Below, in pieces: positions 5,248 through 28,393 of a stretch of DNA of 34,855 nucleotides (its first letter is position 1; each line of letters opens with the position of its first letter). Origin of the DNA: an uncultured Bacteroidales bacterium (GTDB lineage: Bacteria > Bacteroidota > Bacteroidia > Bacteroidales > UBA4417). The DNA is taken from contig CAIJPI010000199.1 in assembly GCA_903822525.1 (NCBI GenBank), forward strand, positions 1 to 34,855. Direction: 5' to 3'. Made by a program: the position numbers and the translations under genes. The notes beneath the pieces are model-generated. The model did not search any database and was not told the DNA's origin. It saw only the letters and a program-made list of their open reading frames with translations.

Positions 5248-6909
5248 ATGGACTTTGGCGTACTATGCAACGGTAATACTTTCCAGCAGTGGCAGATCGA
5301 AACAATCAGGAACCTGGTTTCGGCAGGACACACTTGCTCGTTGCTGATTGTAAATTCGAACCCTGCCTTTAAAACCGGTTTTCGTAAAAAAGCGATTCAT
5401 TATCCGTATTCAAAGTTGTTTTACAGGGTTTGGTTCAGGTATATGATGCATCCTGAAGCAAAGAAAGACGTTGATATTACCAGTTATTATGCAGGTATTC
5501 CTGAAATACACTTTAAAACTGTAAAGAAAGGTTTTGCTGAGTATTTCGATGCAACGGATGTTGAAAAAGTAAAAGATTCCGGCCTTGATTTTATTCTCAG
5601 GTTTGGATTCGGCATTATTAAGGGTGATATTCTTGAAGCTGCCAAATACGGTATTTGGTCATACCACCACGACGATGAGCTTAAATACCGTGGGGTGCCG
5701 ACAGGTTTCTGGGAGATTATGTTTGACGATCCGGTGAATGCGGCTATACTGCAGCGACTGACCAGTAAACTTGATAGCGGTATCATCTTGCACAAAGCCT
5801 ATTTCGGAACCATAAACCATTCGTGGCAGTCCAATCTGGATAATCTGTTAAAAAGTTCAACCGAATGGCCCCTGCAGGTTTGTAACGGGATTGAAAACGG
5901 GAACCTCGAATTTCTTTCAGTTTCAAATCCGCCTTCTTCGAAAATATACAAGCTGCCTGGTAATTTAACGATGCTGCGTTTCCTGCTGAAACTGGCTGCC
6001 AATAAACTGAGATTTCATTATCATGACTTATTTCTGACTGAAAAATGGAATGTCGGGATTGTACCCATGTCCGTAGATAAATTCCTACAAGCCGGTGACT
6101 CTGATATTCCGGAACCTGTCTGGCTGAAAACAGGGGCAGCAAAATCGCTTTATCATGCCGACCCGTTTGGATTTGTTAAAGAGGATATGCTGCATATTAT
6201 TTGCGAAGAATACGATTATAAAAGTGCCAGGGGAATACTTACAGCTTTTAAACTGGATAAAAGATCATTCCGGATCGCTGAGAAGACTATTGCCCATGAG
6301 AAGGATTATCATCTTGCTTTTCCGTTTTTATTTGAACACGAGAGCAATTTTTATTGCATACCTGAAAATTCGGCAGGCGGGAATGTTGAATTATTCAAAT
6401 ATAACCCTGTTGGCAGTAAACTTGATTTTGTGATAACGCTGATACCTGATCTGCAGGCTGTTGATCCTACTTTGTTTTTCCATGAAGGATTTTGGTGGCT
6501 GTTTTTTACGGATAAAATTTCAACCAATGAACGGCTGAACATCTGGTATTCCGAAAATCTGCATGGTCCTTACCTGCCTCATGCAAACAACCCTGTAAAG
6601 GTTGATATCCGCTCATCGCGACCTGCCGGCAATCTTTTTATAATGGATGGCAAACTCATGCGGCCGGCCCAGGATTGTTCCATACGGTCGGGAAGACGTA
6701 TTTGTATCAACCAGGTTCTAAAACTGAGCCCGATTGATTTTCAGGAAACTAACTATGCAGTGCTGAACTCAGCCCCTCATTCAAAATTCGGTGATGGTAT
6801 GCATACTTTTTGTGTTGTAGATCAGGCGGTTATTGTGGATGGGAAAAGAGAACAGTTTGTATGGCAGGCTTTTAGAAGAAAGCTGATGAAAAAAATTAAT
6901 AACTTATAA
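5248..6909 (+). CDS. Formyltransferase-fold / GINT1-like beta-propeller fusion protein
   Basis: This 553-residue protein has two parts. Residues about 1-230 resemble the formyltransferase fold: GIWSYHHDDELKYRGVPTG (135-153) lines up with the Fmt NLHxSLLPxYRG motif, and LDSGIIL (175-181) with the IDTGNII Asp. The expected catalytic triad Asn-His-Asp reads Ser138-His140-Asp176, so the Asn is replaced. Residues about 265-553 look like the five-bladed propeller domain of plant GINT1 (glucosamine inositolphosphorylceramide transferase) N-terminal regions: WNVGIVP, HADPFGFVKEDMLHIICEE, and the AVDPTLFFHEGFWWLFFT repeat. No GT64 transferase domain is present. Family knowledge suggests transfer to an amino sugar or glycolipid, but the reaction is inference. 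The gene sits between a GT4 enzyme and an M28 peptidase with 17-bp and 2-bp gaps. Confidence 0.7.
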   Translation: MDFGVLCNGNTFQQWQIETIRNLVSAGHTCSLLIVNSNPAFKTGFRKKAIHYPYSKLFYRVWFRYMMHPEAKKDVDITSYYAGIPEIHFKTVKKGFAEYFDATDVEKVKDSGLDFILRFGFGIIKGDILEAAKYGIWSYHHDDELKYRGVPTGFWEIMFDDPVNAAILQRLTSKLDSGIILHKAYFGTINHSWQSNLDNLLKSSTEWPLQVCNGIENGNLEFLSVSNPPSSKIYKLPGNLTMLRFLLKLAANKLRFHYHDLFLTEKWNVGIVPMSVDKFLQAGDSDIPEPVWLKTGAAKSLYHADPFGFVKEDMLHIICEEYDYKSARGILTAFKLDKRSFRIAEKTIAHEKDYHLAFPFLFEHESNFYCIPENSAGGNVELFKYNPVGSKLDFVITLIPDLQAVDPTLFFHEGFWWLFFTDKISTNERLNIWYSENLHGPYLPHANNPVKVDIRSSRPAGNLFIMDGKLMRPAQDCSIRSGRRICINQVLKLSPIDFQETNYAVLNSAPHSKFGDGMHTFCVVDQAVIVDGKREQFVWQAFRRKLMKKINNL

Positions 6910-22950: not shown

Positions 22951-23766
22951 ATGAAATATTATATCCGCATCACACTATTTGCATTACTGCTGTTACCTGT
23001 TATGTCGAAGGCAGGCTGGGTAATTACCGGCAGGTATATCGACCGTGACGGAAAAACTATTTTTAAAAGATATTTTATCCAGAACAACGATGTTAAAGTA
23101 GAGCAGTTTAATCTTATCTATTCAATCAACCTGAAAACGGAAAGCATTATACTTGTTGACCCTGAAAACCTTGTTTTTGTCAGAACAAATCTGAAAGCCT
23201 ACCAGCAGAAAGTGAAAGAAGCCCGTTTAACAAGACTCAGTGAACTATTGGAGCTCATTCCGGCAGACCAGAAAAGTGAAATTGAAAAAAAATACAGGGC
23301 CCAAGCGGAGCGGGAGATATTTCTACCCGAATACGATCAGGATTCTTTGATAATTAGGCAATTAGCTGATACAGTTAAGCTATTGGGAAAGCACACGGCA
23401 AAATTTATGGTTTTCGAAAACGGTCTTAAGAAAGAAGATTTCTTTTTTACAGACGAAATTGATATTTCCTCCGACTTTGATCTGGACAATTTTCTGAAGT
23501 ATCAGTATGTTCTTGAACCTTCTGATAAAACTATACGTTACAGATCATCAGGAAAATACCTTGATATTGTTAAAAAAGGACTGGTACTCCGAAGGTTTAT
23601 TTATGAAGACGGCTACCGTTCCGAATGGCAGGTAAATAAATATGAACATAAAGATATACCTGCCTACGAATTTGGTACTCCCGACCTGTGTAAAGAGCTG
23701 ACTCTCGAAAAGTGGCTTAGCAGGCAAAAGAACTCAGAAGACAAATATTACGACGATTATGAATGA
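22951..23766 (+). CDS. Exported protein of unknown function
   Basis: The 271-residue product has a signal peptide (1-21, ending MSKA). Mature segments such as GWVITGRYIDRDGKTIFKR, a charged helical stretch (about 85-130), and a Tyr/Asp-rich C-terminus have the feel of LolA-like or DUF4412-type envelope proteins, but I cannot assign a family with confidence. The stop codon overlaps the next gene's start by 8 bp, so it is translationally coupled to a TrmH-family methyltransferase. No role connecting the two is apparent. Confidence 0.65.
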   Translation: MKYYIRITLFALLLLPVMSKAGWVITGRYIDRDGKTIFKRYFIQNNDVKVEQFNLIYSINLKTESIILVDPENLVFVRTNLKAYQQKVKEARLTRLSELLELIPADQKSEIEKKYRAQAEREIFLPEYDQDSLIIRQLADTVKLLGKHTAKFMVFENGLKKEDFFFTDEIDISSDFDLDNFLKYQYVLEPSDKTIRYRSSGKYLDIVKKGLVLRRFIYEDGYRSEWQVNKYEHKDIPAYEFGTPDLCKELTLEKWLSRQKNSEDKYYDDYE

Positions 23767-24460
23767 AAACAAGGATGCAGCGTATAATGCCAGGCTTTGC
23801 GATTTTTTCAGGAGCATGAAACTCGAAAAACGCAATGAGCTAATGGATAAAGTTTTGCATGATCGCACCAGGTATATTGCAGTTGCTCTCGAAAATATCT
23901 ACCAGCCTCACAATGCCAGTGCCGTGCTCAGGTCGTGCGACTGTTTTGGCGTTCAGGATGTGCACATTATCGAAAACTCGTATCAGTATGAGCTCAACCC
24001 GCATGTTTCGCTCGGAGCCGCTCAATGGCTCAATTTACACAGGTACGATAGCGGCGACAACAATACCCCCGAATGCATCAACAACCTTAAAAAAGAAGGA
24101 TACCGCATTGTTGCCACAACACCAGATCCAGAAGCGGTTTCAATTCATGATTTTGATGTAACAAAAGGCAAATTTGCACTTTTGTTCGGTACCGAGAAGT
24201 TCGGACTTACAGCCGAAGCCTGTGCCATGGCAGATGAATCTATTCGGATTCCCATGTACGGATTTACCGAAAGTTTTAATATTTCCGTGTCTGTTTCCCT
24301 CTGCTTATTCCATTTTACTGAACGCATACGCGCCGAAAAAGCTTCATGGCGTTTATCAGCTGAAGAACAAACGGATATTTACCTGCAATGGTTGCGAAAT
24401 ACCATTACAAACAGCGAGATGATAGAAAGGAAATTTCATGCGGATTATTATTCCGGATAA
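23759..24460 (+). CDS. TrmH/SpoU-family tRNA 2'-O-methyltransferase
   Basis: The 233-residue protein carries the three SpoU motifs: NASAVLRSCDCFGV (52-65) with catalytic R58, LLFGTEKFGLTAEA (141-154), and IPMYGFTESFNISVSVSL (164-181), the trefoil-knot SAM site. In the family the likely target is G18 of tRNA (TrmH), but rRNA-specific relatives exist and specificity cannot be decided here. The start overlaps the preceding gene by 8 bp; a second in-frame ATG occurs four bases later, though not in the same frame, so the first is used. Confidence 0.85.
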   Translation: MNENKDAAYNARLCDFFRSMKLEKRNELMDKVLHDRTRYIAVALENIYQPHNASAVLRSCDCFGVQDVHIIENSYQYELNPHVSLGAAQWLNLHRYDSGDNNTPECINNLKKEGYRIVATTPDPEAVSIHDFDVTKGKFALLFGTEKFGLTAEACAMADESIRIPMYGFTESFNISVSVSLCLFHFTERIRAEKASWRLSAEEQTDIYLQWLRNTITNSEMIERKFHADYYSG

Positions 24461-24599: not shown

Positions 24600-24863
24600 A
24601 TGGGAAAAGGAGATAAAAAATCACGTAGAGGAAAAATAATTCTGGGTTCAAGCGGAGTTCGCAGGCCAAAAGCATCGAAAATCAAAAATTTTGTTGCTTC
24701 CGGTGTTGACGCAAAAGTTGCGAAAGTTGCTGAAACTGTAAAGCCTGAGGCTAAACCTAAGGCAAAAGTTACCACAGCTGATCCGGGAACAGACACAGTT
24801 GTTGCTGCTAAAACACTAAAAAAAGCAGTAAAGAAGCCAGCGACTGATGATACACCTGCATAA
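24600..24863 (+). CDS. 30S ribosomal protein bTHX with an extended tail
   Basis: The first ~25 residues (MGKGDKKSRRGKIILGSSGV, then RRPK) are the bTHX (Thx) signature known from Bacteroidota and Thermus, which sits at the head of the 30S subunit. Here about 60 further residues follow, low-complexity and rich in Ala, Lys, Val and Pro (KAKVTTADPGTD, KKAVKKPATDD), making 87 residues against the ~25-50 usual for the protein. The tail resembles the Ala/Lys tails of some ribosomal proteins and H1-like proteins. No perfect TAnnTTTG is seen upstream; TAATTTTA (24558-24565) matches seven of eight positions. Confidence 0.82.
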   Translation: MGKGDKKSRRGKIILGSSGVRRPKASKIKNFVASGVDAKVAKVAETVKPEAKPKAKVTTADPGTDTVVAAKTLKKAVKKPATDDTPA

Positions 24864-24891: not shown

Positions 24892-26286
24892 TTAAGGATG
24901 TGAAGGATTAAGTTCTTTCACATTTTTTTTATAGGTATCGCCTCTTTCTTCGAAATTTTTAAACATATCGTAACTGGCTGCGGCAGGCGATAATAAACAG
25001 ATTCTTCCTTTTTGGGTTACATCCCCCGCTATATTTACCACCTCGCTGTAATCGGAAGCTGTATATAAATTAACAGAGCCTTTCCCGTGGTTGATAAATT
25101 CTTTCATCATTCGCTTGCCGGCATCACCTACAAAAATCAGATTGGTGATTCCGGAGGACGGCAAAAAAGGATATAGTATCGTGTATTCAATTCCCCGGTC
25201 GAAACCGCCAAGTATTAATGTATCAACGGTCTGAAGTGTTCTGACAGCTTCGATGGTTGCCTCCGGAATAGTGGCTATTGAATCATTATACCATGAAATG
25301 CCGCCATATTCACCTACCGATTCAATACGATGTGCTAGCCCGTTAAATGATCTGATACCTGAACCTATTTGTTCGGTTGTAATACCGCATAAGTAACTGG
25401 CAACTGCTGCTGCCATAATATTGTAGAGATTATGGTGTCCTTTGAGTGGTTGCCCCGGACTGGTATCGTATAGTTTCACAGCGCCATGGGCTGACTGCAG
25501 TACAATACCCTGATCCTCTAAGCGCAGGGTGGCACGGGTGCCAGGCTCAAGCGAAAAGTCAATCTGCTGGTGATCCGGTTCTTCCGATCGGGCAATAAGC
25601 TGAAGCAGTGTCTCATTATCGGCATTATAAATAAAGAAATCATCAGCATGCTGGTATTTACCAATGTTGAATTTTGCCGATTTATATTCTTCATAAGTAT
25701 AATAATGGTCGAGATGTTCCTGGTAAAGGTTTAATAAAATGGCTATGTGCGGGGCATTTGCGACATATTCAAGCTGGTGGGATGATAGTTCGAGTACAAT
25801 GAATGAATCGGGCCTGATATCGTTAATGCAATCGAATGGAGGGATTCCGATATTTCCTACCAGCATGGTATTGAGTCCGGCATTTTTCAGGATATGGAAT
25901 ATCAGGCTTGAGGTGGTGCTTTTCCCTTTTGTTCCGGTGATGCCTATGGCCTGAGTGCCATAGCACTGAAGAAATATATCCGTTTGGGAGGTTAAATGTA
26001 CCCGCTTTAATTCCGTTGGCAGGGTGTTGGATGGAATGCCAGGCGATTTAATGGCTACATCAAATCCATCGATGGAGTGCATGCAGTTTTTACCGGTAAT
26101 AAATCGCAGAAAAGTATCCTCTTTAATCGTTTCATTGTCCCTGACAGCATCGTTTTCGTCGACAATGGTGAAGATTTTCGCGGGGAAAATCCTGCGCAAT
26201 AAATTATAAGTTGATTTCCCTTCTCTTCCAAAACCTAAAATGGCAATATCTTTGAATTCAAAAAGGCTCCGTATCAATTCATCCAT
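24892..26286 (-). CDS. murD2: MurD2-type UDP-MurNAc-L-Ala--L-Glu ligase
   Basis: The 464-residue protein is a MurD-like Mur ligase: N-terminal nucleotide-sugar domain (AILGFGREGKST, 15-26), ATP-binding GTKGKSTTSSL (118-128; most MurD proteins have GTNGKST), LELSSHQLEY, NLYQEHLDH, and a C-terminal domain with SIATIPEATIEA. The upstream gene is the MurL-like epimerase and its stop overlaps this start by 13 bp, so the two are translationally coupled. In Xanthomonas, MurD2 adds L-Glu, which MurL then epimerises; this context is the reason for preferring L-Glu ligase over the D-Glu enzyme MurD. A plain MurD assignment cannot be excluded from sequence alone. Confidence 0.8.
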   Translation of the reverse strand: MDELIRSLFEFKDIAILGFGREGKSTYNLLRRIFPAKIFTIVDENDAVRDNETIKEDTFLRFITGKNCMHSIDGFDVAIKSPGIPSNTLPTELKRVHLTSQTDIFLQCYGTQAIGITGTKGKSTTSSLIFHILKNAGLNTMLVGNIGIPPFDCINDIRPDSFIVLELSSHQLEYVANAPHIAILLNLYQEHLDHYYTYEEYKSAKFNIGKYQHADDFFIYNADNETLLQLIARSEEPDHQQIDFSLEPGTRATLRLEDQGIVLQSAHGAVKLYDTSPGQPLKGHHNLYNIMAAAVASYLCGITTEQIGSGIRSFNGLAHRIESVGEYGGISWYNDSIATIPEATIEAVRTLQTVDTLILGGFDRGIEYTILYPFLPSSGITNLIFVGDAGKRMMKEFINHGKGSVNLYTASDYSEVVNIAGDVTQKGRICLLSPAAASYDMFKNFEERGDTYKKNVKELNPSHP

Positions 26287-27677
26287 TTGAGTTTCTGTTT
26301 AATGATTTCCAGGAAACCTGATTCCAGAAAATGATCATCGTTATATTCATTCAGTATTTTGTCGGCCAGTTCTGAATTGTCGGGAGTAAAATTGGTAGTA
26401 TTGCTGTAATAATCAATCAATAAAGGAAGTTTTTCATTTTTATGCCTGGCAATAAACATATGCAATGCTGCATTCACTTCGTCGATAGTTCCTACGCATT
26501 CAAAAGGTTTTACCTCTTCAATTCCAGTAAGTTCTTTCAGGTAAACCAGCATCTTGGGTGAATCGAACAGGTTTGTCCCAAAAATATGTACCAATTCAAT
26601 CATCGGAATAAAAGGACTGAGAATAGTGAATGCAAACAGGCATTTCGGACAGTTACAGCACCAGACATCCGTTTTGCTTCCTGCATTGCAGCTTTTAAAC
26701 ACGGGGTAATATTTAATCTGTTCGGCGAAAATCCGGGCAATCTGAAGTTCATTCAAGGGCCGGAGAAAGCTGAAATAGTTGAAATCAGCCGAAATAAATT
26801 CATTCACATAGGCTCTGAAACCCGATTCGAACGCAAAGGACTTGGAGTACTGGTGATTGATGTCAGTACCAGCAACGGTGGGTTCGTTTGCGCTTGATTC
26901 GTTCGAGAGGGCTATATGCCTGTGTCCTGAAATGGCTGAGACCAACAGGCTGTAAAAAGCAAGCATGGCTGAGAAAGGTGTATGTCCGTTCAGGAAGCCA
27001 TTGGCATTGAGCTCAAACAGGAGAGGATCCAGACGACGGTTAATTTCGATAAATCCGTCGTTTCCAAAACCGGCTGCACGAACACATTCAATGGTTGCAC
27101 CCCTGGGATTCATGATAAAAGGGCGGATGTTTTCGCTCTTTCCCAGCAGTTCCAACGTTACCACGGAATCCTTTCCACCTCCAATAGGTACGATTACAGT
27201 TTCGTCGAGGCTGACAGATTGTGCTGCCATGCTGTCGCCTGATGATGATATATCCATAAACTCCTGCTGCGACGTTTTAATGCCATTGGTATAGAAAAAT
27301 TCGCCCAGGCCCTGATAATAAACATTTTTCCACCAGGCCATTTGTTTATCTGTAAGTGTTTGTCCTTTAATGATCAGGCGGGGAGGGCAGGCTGATTTCC
27401 AATAGCTGATAAGCTCTATAAGACCGATCTGGAAAAGAAGGTTTACGAAAAGCGGGCTGTTTAACGTTTCGGTTGTTGGAAAATTTGCAAAGAATTTTTT
27501 TTTCGGAATACTGAAGCCAGGACGGAACTTATATTTGCCAGCCAGGTTAAATTCATACGTAACATGCAAACCGGCCTGATCTGTTCTTGCTTCAAACCCG
27601 TTATATTCCATAAATGGATATTCTTCCCGCAGCCGATTAAACTTTTCCTGTCCTGCTATGTTTTCAGATTTGTTCAT
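26274..27677 (-). CDS. murL: MurL-type UDP-MurNAc-L-Ala-L-Glu epimerase
   Basis: The 467-residue protein matches what I recall of MurL (about 450 residues): an N-terminal all-purpose domain (about 1-155), then a PP-loop ATP-binding site VPIGGGKDSVVTLEL (163-177, key residues G166-G168, D170, S171). A Cys cluster (C330, C340, C341, C343, C346 in KSCNAGSKTDVWCCNCPKC) resembles the zinc site of PP-loop enzymes such as QueC. MurL converts the terminal L-Glu of UDP-MurNAc-L-Ala-L-Glu to D-Glu with ATP cleaved to AMP and PPi (EC 5.1.1.23). It overlaps murD2 by 13 bp and has a TATCTTTG promoter element 43 bp upstream. The presence of an intact PP-loop and the partner gene argue for function. Confidence 0.85.
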   Translation of the reverse strand: MNKSENIAGQEKFNRLREEYPFMEYNGFEARTDQAGLHVTYEFNLAGKYKFRPGFSIPKKKFFANFPTTETLNSPLFVNLLFQIGLIELISYWKSACPPRLIIKGQTLTDKQMAWWKNVYYQGLGEFFYTNGIKTSQQEFMDISSSGDSMAAQSVSLDETVIVPIGGGKDSVVTLELLGKSENIRPFIMNPRGATIECVRAAGFGNDGFIEINRRLDPLLFELNANGFLNGHTPFSAMLAFYSLLVSAISGHRHIALSNESSANEPTVAGTDINHQYSKSFAFESGFRAYVNEFISADFNYFSFLRPLNELQIARIFAEQIKYYPVFKSCNAGSKTDVWCCNCPKCLFAFTILSPFIPMIELVHIFGTNLFDSPKMLVYLKELTGIEEVKPFECVGTIDEVNAALHMFIARHKNEKLPLLIDYYSNTTNFTPDNSELADKILNEYNDDHFLESGFLEIIKQKLKWMN

Positions 27678-27829: not shown

Positions 27830-28393
27830 ATGACTTTACCCGATCAAAATCCAGCAGGTGGCCGCATTCTGGTAAGCCAGCCTTCACTCAACGACAGGTT
27901 TTTCAACAGGTCGGTTGTTATGCTGGCTGAACACGGACCGGATGGTAGTTTTGGCTTTATTGTCAATAAACCGGCCCGCATCAAACTAAGCTCGGTTACC
28001 GGCGAATTCGGAACATTTGACACAGACCTTTATCTGGGCGGTCCTGTACAGGTAAACAACCTTTTTTATGTTCATTCAAAAGGTGACATGATAAAGGGCA
28101 GCCTGAAAATTATTGAGGGCGTATATTGGGGAGGGGATATGAATGAAATCCGGAGCCTGTTGGCTTCAGGGAAACTAACCGAAAATGATATTCGTTTTTA
28201 TGCCGGATATTCAGGCTGGCAACCTTGCCAACTGGATGATGAAATGAAACAGAATTCGTGGATTGTATTGGATGGCATGAAAAAATACGTCTTCGGATTG
28301 CGCCCGGCATACCTGTGGAAGAGAATTGTATTAAATCTGGGTAAAGACTTTGCACCCTGGGTCAACTATCCTGACGATCCGAACATGAATTAA
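27830..28393 (+). CDS. yqgE: YqgE/AlgH family protein
   Basis: The 187-residue protein has the family hallmarks: AGGRILVSQPSLNDRFFNRSV in the N-terminal part (read in two pieces, ILVSQPSL and FNRSVVMLAEH), GFIVNKP, YLGGPVQ, and YAGYSGWQPCQLDDE at residues about 124-138. Family length is about 185. The molecular function of YqgE/AlgH is not established; it has been linked to alginate regulation in Pseudomonas by name only. The gene converges on the rhomboid gene with a 38-bp gap. Confidence 0.93.
   Translation: MTLPDQNPAGGRILVSQPSLNDRFFNRSVVMLAEHGPDGSFGFIVNKPARIKLSSVTGEFGTFDTDLYLGGPVQVNNLFYVHSKGDMIKGSLKIIEGVYWGGDMNEIRSLLASGKLTENDIRFYAGYSGWQPCQLDDEMKQNSWIVLDGMKKYVFGLRPAYLWKRIVLNLGKDFAPWVNYPDDPNMN

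Follow-up and report, generated by a model that had tools for sequence, protein, structure and literature searches.

D-Glutamate is a component of nearly all bacterial cell walls, and the pair of overlapping genes considered here raises the question of how an uncultured Bacteroidales bacterium supplies it. A sequence-only reading of the locus had proposed that L-glutamate is attached to the wall precursor by one gene product and then epimerised by the other, without the glutamate racemase MurI or in parallel with it. Such a pathway is already known: it is the MurD2–MurL pathway of Xanthomonas oryzae (XOO_1320 and XOO_1319; Feng et al. 2017, as recounted in PMC8788868), in which both reactions have been shown, MurL using ATP and forming AMP, whereas the adenylate intermediate of MurL is a hypothesis of the authors (PMC8788868). 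Orthologues from Micromonospora and Salinispora have been shown to function in vitro, and the pathway is described as restricted to comparatively few genera, with some Gamma- and Alphaproteobacteria listed together with rare actinobacteria (PMC8788868); low-similarity orthologues are also mentioned for a fungus, cyanobacteria and an amoeba (PMC5808125). The relevant passages of these two papers do not list Bacteroidota, and no report of the pathway in that phylum appeared among the listed matches of an open-access literature search, although the MurL name may already be present in protein databases through automatic annotation.

The overlapping gene pair and the MurL protein

The window (the whole 34,855-nt stretch that we analysed) corresponds to contig C199 of a draft genome of 4.1 Mb, which is 93% complete and in 354 contigs. 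Its closest titled relatives are Bacteroidales MAGs, 80–81% identical, in agreement with the Bacteroidota host that had been suspected from the letters alone. Both open reading frames are present as had been described (Table 1), with the GGGKDS loop and the Cys cluster SCNAGSKTDVWCCNCPKC in the MurL frame and the motif GTKGKST in the ligase frame; an origin of the two frames by chance or misreading was ruled out by the ORF check and by their matches to the MurL and murD families. The ATG of the ligase gene sits within the final codons of the MurL frame, and the overlap likely leads to translational coupling. The flanking genes lie on the opposite strand and are seemingly unrelated to the pair. 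Bacteroidetes promoters follow a −7/−33 pattern, which occurs once in the window (1.4 occurrences would be expected), at a site not upstream of murL. The pair was also said to stand away from any dcw cluster, and the genome bears this out: the dcw cluster, with its own MurD, MurC, MurG, MurE and MraY, is on a separate contig, C143.

Table 1. Features of the murL–ligase locus and its flanks, in window coordinates.
Feature	Position	Strand	Details
MurL ORF	26274-27677	-	467 aa; NF041275 E 2e-78; matched by profile to the annotated MurL of Xanthomonas sacchari
GGGKDS PP-loop	27165-27182	-	MurL residues 166-171
Cx9CxxCxxC, predicted zinc site	26640-26690	-	MurL C330-C346
Overlap of murL and ligase genes	26274-26286	-	13 nt; from ORFs and sequence read
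MurD2-type ligase ORF	24892-26286	-	464 aa; TIGR01087 311 bits; L-Glu-type residues
MurD2 E190	25717-25719	-	equivalent to E. coli MurD D182
MurD2 I337	25276-25278	-	equivalent to E. coli MurD K319
MurD2 R364	25195-25197	-	equivalent to E. coli MurD K348
AlgH-like gene	27830-28393	+	flank of the pair
87-residue ORF	24600-24863	+	other flank of the pair; sub-threshold Thx match
SpoU-type methyltransferase gene	23759-24460	+	same flank as the 87-residue ORF

Two further features of the window are recorded here in their own right. At the contig start (8–901, + strand) lies a 297-aa Mur ligase fragment whose best NCBIfam match is murC (116 bits), with mpl at 78 bits; it is perhaps the recycling ligase Mpl, and its N-terminal part may be the match seen at the end of contig C106. 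At 5248–6909 (+ strand), a 553-aa protein adjoins a glycosyltransferase; its GINT1_N domain takes its name from glucosamine inositolphosphorylceramide transferase.

The product of the first gene of the pair is clearly homologous to MurL. It matches NCBIfam NF041275 at 264 bits over 388 of the 447 model positions, below the curated cut-off of 700 bits of this Xanthomonadales-named equivalog (MurL_Xanthmoales), and is 36% identical to X. sacchari MurL over 321 aa. A profile of 66 MurLs from the sampled loci aligns with the X. sacchari protein over 428 columns (8.7e-63) and with a Pseudonocardia homologue at 5e-44; the 65 columns that are invariant in the 66 Bacteroidota MurLs are kept in 52 cases in X. 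sacchari, in 44 in Pseudonocardia and in 41 in both. C394, H232 and H275 are likewise invariant in all 66 and kept in the two other phyla. The PP-loop reads GGGKDS in 65 of the 66 aligned MurLs and SGGKDS in one, and the first spacing of the Cys motif is 9 in 64 and 10 in two, the Xanthomonas and Pseudonocardia homologues having the same four-Cys motif with a longer first spacing. Pfam gave no family for the window protein at E 0.001. The sequence-only reading had named membership in an unrelated PP-loop family as the outcome that would speak against it; the 467-residue protein matches the MurL model itself.

Among other loci, L106 and L107, from other groups of the phylum, have open frames of 784 and 803 residues that match MurL over just 60–75 columns and perhaps represent another PP-loop family. 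Locus L208 encodes a 466-aa MurL homologue on a Pseudonocardia plasmid with no annotated ligase adjoining, and two more Pseudonocardia plasmids have one.

The AlphaFold2 model of the window MurL (pLDDT 95.8, pTM 0.93) has no Foldseek match in the PDB at E 0.001. The best match, the QueC-type PP-loop enzyme QatC (9y02_B; probability 0.94, E 4.9e-3, TM 0.34/0.37), is remote; PH1313 ranks second and argininosuccinate synthases fourth, sixth and seventh, the others being unrelated folds. A single-sequence search found no solved MurL structure, and a search with the MurL profile returned TtuA PH0300 as its sole match, around the PP-loop (E 6e-4). MurL likely combines a PP-loop fold with a zinc site. 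PP-loop chemistry yields AMP, and these features therefore fit the AMP formation reported for MurL. The two MurL motifs also resemble those of QueC, which has SGGxDS and Cx8CxxCxxC, the latter a zinc site (PMC13329287); word searches for MurL in PMC13329287 and PMC13279940 were negative. The likeness to QueC is one of fold, and we do not file MurL as a QueC member: the window protein has no match at the gathering cut-off of Pfam QueC (PF06508), which matches nine of the 66 MurLs weakly (best E 0.018), and the MurL profile aligns with E. coli QueC only in the C-terminal Cys region (probability 6, as compared with 0.1 for E. coli MurD as a control). A defence-system role for this QueC-like protein was considered and rejected, the PADLOC QueC model being weak in three of the 66 MurLs and absent for the window protein.

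Predicted glutamate specificity of the ligase and its partnership with MurL

The second product, described beforehand as MurD-like, scores well above the TIGR01087 murD cut-off of 212 bits (Table 1). In X. oryzae MurD2, E197 and R358, the equivalents of E. coli D182 and K348, set the use of L-Glu, and E. coli MurD gains L-Glu use upon the change K319T (PMC8788868). The window ligase has the L-Glu-type residues E190, I337 and R364 at these three sites, and by these residues does not look like the D-Glu-preferring ligase that would also have spoken against the sequence-only reading; it has A437 and Y439 where X. oryzae MurD2 has P433 and F435, two residues that do not set stereospecificity (PMC8788868). 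As far as sequence can tell, it is a MurD2-type ligase that takes L-Glu.

Residues at E. coli positions 182/319/348, counted after removal of duplicate loci, divide the relatives in the same manner. Among 63 distinct MurL-paired ligases, 58 carry E/I/R and two D/I/R, the remaining three being truncated; fused ligases carry E/I/R in 7 of 7 cases, and so do 24 of the 25 unpaired MurDs of MurL-positive genomes outside the two-MurD set, the exception being the canonical second MurD of genome G774, where an E/I/R ligase is present too. D182 is kept in two paired ligases of relatives, one of them the sole MurD of genome G049. MurI-positive relatives, on the other hand, have D/K/K in 30 of 30 MurDs, as do all 21 of the second, unpaired canonical-type MurDs of MurL-positive relatives. 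E. coli positions 16 and 113 also split the classes, so that S/N/D/K/K at positions 16, 113, 182, 319 and 348 of the Bacteroidales proteins becomes E/K/E/I/R in MurD2, with Xanthomonas on the MurD2 side at all five. These counts include the canonical dcw MurDs L136 and L147, which fell below the 150-bit filter and were checked as S/N/D/K/K, and set apart two rows (L039, truncated, and L182, a repeat of L001). The window ligase belongs to the same fold family as canonical MurD (TIGR01087) and keeps 14 of the 14 E. coli residues that were chosen for the comparison, but MurD2 forms a separate branch in both a 93-row and a 52-row tree. X. sacchari MurD2 is included only in the 52-row tree, where it has a very long branch and is placed within the MurD2 rows of the Bacteroidales.

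Genomic linkage ties the ligase to MurL. Across 100 distinct MurL loci (duplicates between the sets of loci removed), the ligase gene overlaps murL by 50 nt or less in 53 and by more than 50 nt in three, these lengths being upper bounds given the use of longest ORFs; it lies across a short gap in seven, is fused in seven, and is not adjacent in 30, some of which are at contig ends. Since the ligase is adjacent or fused in 70 of the 100, chance pairing is excluded. The natural fusions (L045, L067, L087, L089, L091, L103 and L105) are ORFs of 903–929 aa, and the structure model of L091 has pLDDT 89.9 and pTM 0.85. MurL and ligase distances correlate at 0.92 over 60 pairs, a value reached in 0 of 2000 permutations. 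Where MurL is unpaired (28 genomes), 23 have a MurD at 1e-60, of which 22 have just one. On this comparative evidence, we consider that MurL and the ligase work together.

The pairing had been likened to that of Xanthomonas, and an X. sacchari plasmid record does hold murL and murD in the same order, with a 20-nt overlap as compared with 13 nt in the window. The two systems also share the residues at sites 182, 319 and 348 and the lack of MurI. They differ in phylum, in the ligase (only 28% identical, with A/Y in the window protein and P/F in Xanthomonas at sites 414/416), and in the occurrence among Bacteroidales relatives of fused pairs and unlinked genes. The window pair would presumably act as the X. 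oryzae pair does.

Sources of D-glutamate in the genome and its relatives

With regard to whether D-Glu is made without MurI or alongside it, the genome points to the former. Neither PF01177 (Pfam) nor TIGR00067 finds an Asp/Glu racemase in the 93% complete draft, and a hidden MurI was rejected on these two negatives. The whole-genome check that had been suggested likewise finds no D-amino-acid transaminase over the cut-off of 277 bits, the best match (37.5 bits) being a 342-residue frame that seems to be a putative branched-chain aminotransferase; none of the 60 relatives has one over the cut-off either, two MurI-positive ones coming near with 269 and 257 bits. The same check does reveal a second murD, in the dcw cluster, which looks D-Glu-type by its residues.

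The 60 relatives include 28 with MurL and 31 with MurI over the cut-off, and none with both; weaker racemase superfamily matches (best E 6e-19) occur in five of the 28. Within the genus, MurI is over the cut-off in 0 of 16 genomes, including one that is 100% and one that is 99% complete, with weak superfamily matches in G003, G007 and G013. Extending the count to 374 sampled genomes of the order gives 122 with MurL only (G461 among them, in which the match is confined to a short, stop-containing fragment), 227 with MurI only (called at E < 1e-25; 225 are over the model cut-off), none with both and 25 with neither, and at the level of families 45 have MurL and 73 have MurI, with none shared. 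Sub-threshold Asp/Glu racemase superfamily matches are present in 27 of the 122 (best E 6e-22), the window's own genome having none. A further 35 MurL-positive genomes, in which the two genes are fused or unpaired, were reached via the named loci and possibly overlap with the 374; none has MurI over the cut-off, and one has a weak match. In a survey of 395 genomes of the phylum, which covers mainly other classes and few genomes of this order, full-length MurL was found only in the window's own genome, plus two short matches, and MurI was over the cut-off in 331. Because the genomes are kin, a Fisher p-value for the exclusion of MurI by MurL is not independent evidence: the dcw MurDs of MurL-positive genomes group in the 93-row tree (22 rows, support 86, with one MurI-positive row inside), and one such row splits off in the 52-row tree, which allows for one or two switches from MurI to MurL in the order.

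One relative, G030 (2.1 Mb, 98% complete), has no match to MurL, MurI or MurD at 1e-60, and is possibly a wall-less or wall-modified member of the Bacteroidales.

Proposed pathway and the retained canonical MurD

Taking these observations together, we consider it very probable that the murL–MurD2 operon replaces MurI as the source of peptidoglycan D-Glu. MurD2 would attach L-Glu to the wall precursor before epimerisation; MurL would use ATP to activate the alpha-carboxylate of the terminal L-Glu, with release of AMP, and would then flip the alpha-carbon and hydrolyse the adenylate. The PP-loop and four-Cys features and the remote QatC fold match fit this AMP-forming mechanism, in which MurL would be a QueC-like zinc PP-loop enzyme, and in this genome, as in its MurL-positive relatives, D-Glu is presumably made de novo by MurL–MurD2 alone. 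What the sequence-only reading observed is thus confirmed, and its interpretation is supported by the comparisons made here.

The alternative that fares best is one of parallel routes, in which free D-Glu (scavenged, recycled or from an unrecognised enzyme) mainly feeds the dcw MurD and MurL–MurD2 is auxiliary. The genome does keep a canonical MurD (L182) among MurC, MurG, MraY and MurE on contig C143, with no visible source of D-Glu; second MurDs of MurL-positive relatives retain D/K/K throughout, as counted above. Over the 13 genomes compared, out of 16 in the genus, the canonical dcw MurD has a median dN/dS of 0.077 (17 of 78 pairs with dS < 1.5), as compared with 0.078 for MurD2 (7 of 78 pairs), and is the more conserved of the two (median identity 76% vs 58%). 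The canonical enzyme of the genus is under strong purifying selection, which suggests that free D-Glu is sometimes used. However, no MurI or D-amino-acid transaminase in the genome exceeds its cut-off, and just one MurD is present at 1e-60 in nearly all genomes with an unpaired MurL and a MurD (22 of 23) and in seven of the 12 MurL-positive genera outside the genus. The sole MurDs of both groups have I319 and R348 throughout, and E182 in every case but G049, which has D182 and is one of the seven genera. The canonical ligase is therefore dispensable. On balance we regard a mainly D-Glu-fed wall as unlikely. Far less probable still is that MurD was simply duplicated next to a PP-loop protein with some other role and that the ligase takes D-Glu: the window ligase is above the murD equivalog cut-off, and the X. 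sacchari record too names its gene a D-Glu ligase, but the residue signature, the fusions, the co-evolution and the strict exclusion of MurI all speak against it. Equally improbable is a MurI missed through incomplete assembly or divergence, for which the fragmented draft and the weak superfamily matches in three genomes of the genus could be cited, against the uniform absence of MurI over the cut-off from all 16 genomes and the negative PF01177 search.

The second MurD, where kept, must be under some selection, and the simplest guess is that it is kept for the salvage of free D-Glu. More tentatively, and as a possibility we would not yet favour, the genus may run two stereochemically opposite routes to one wall precursor, with MurD2–MurL working de novo from L-Glu and the strongly conserved canonical MurD capturing free D-Glu that neighbours or the recycling of the wall provide. 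MurI would have disappeared when the switch took place, and MurL would be a further branch of QueC-type zinc PP-loop proteins turned to alpha-carbon flipping.

For an epimerase with a mechanism that has been called unclear, these results supply many new homologues, a confident model and natural fusions with the ligase, and conservation indicates MurL residues that can be tested, namely the PP-loop, the four cysteines, C394, H232 and H275. The known range of the pathway now extends into another phylum, where 45 groups at the family level have MurL. MurI is a pursued drug target, and if the 122 of 374 sampled Bacteroidales indeed use MurL, glutamate-racemase inhibitors should miss them, whereas inhibitors of MurL or MurD2 should hit them.
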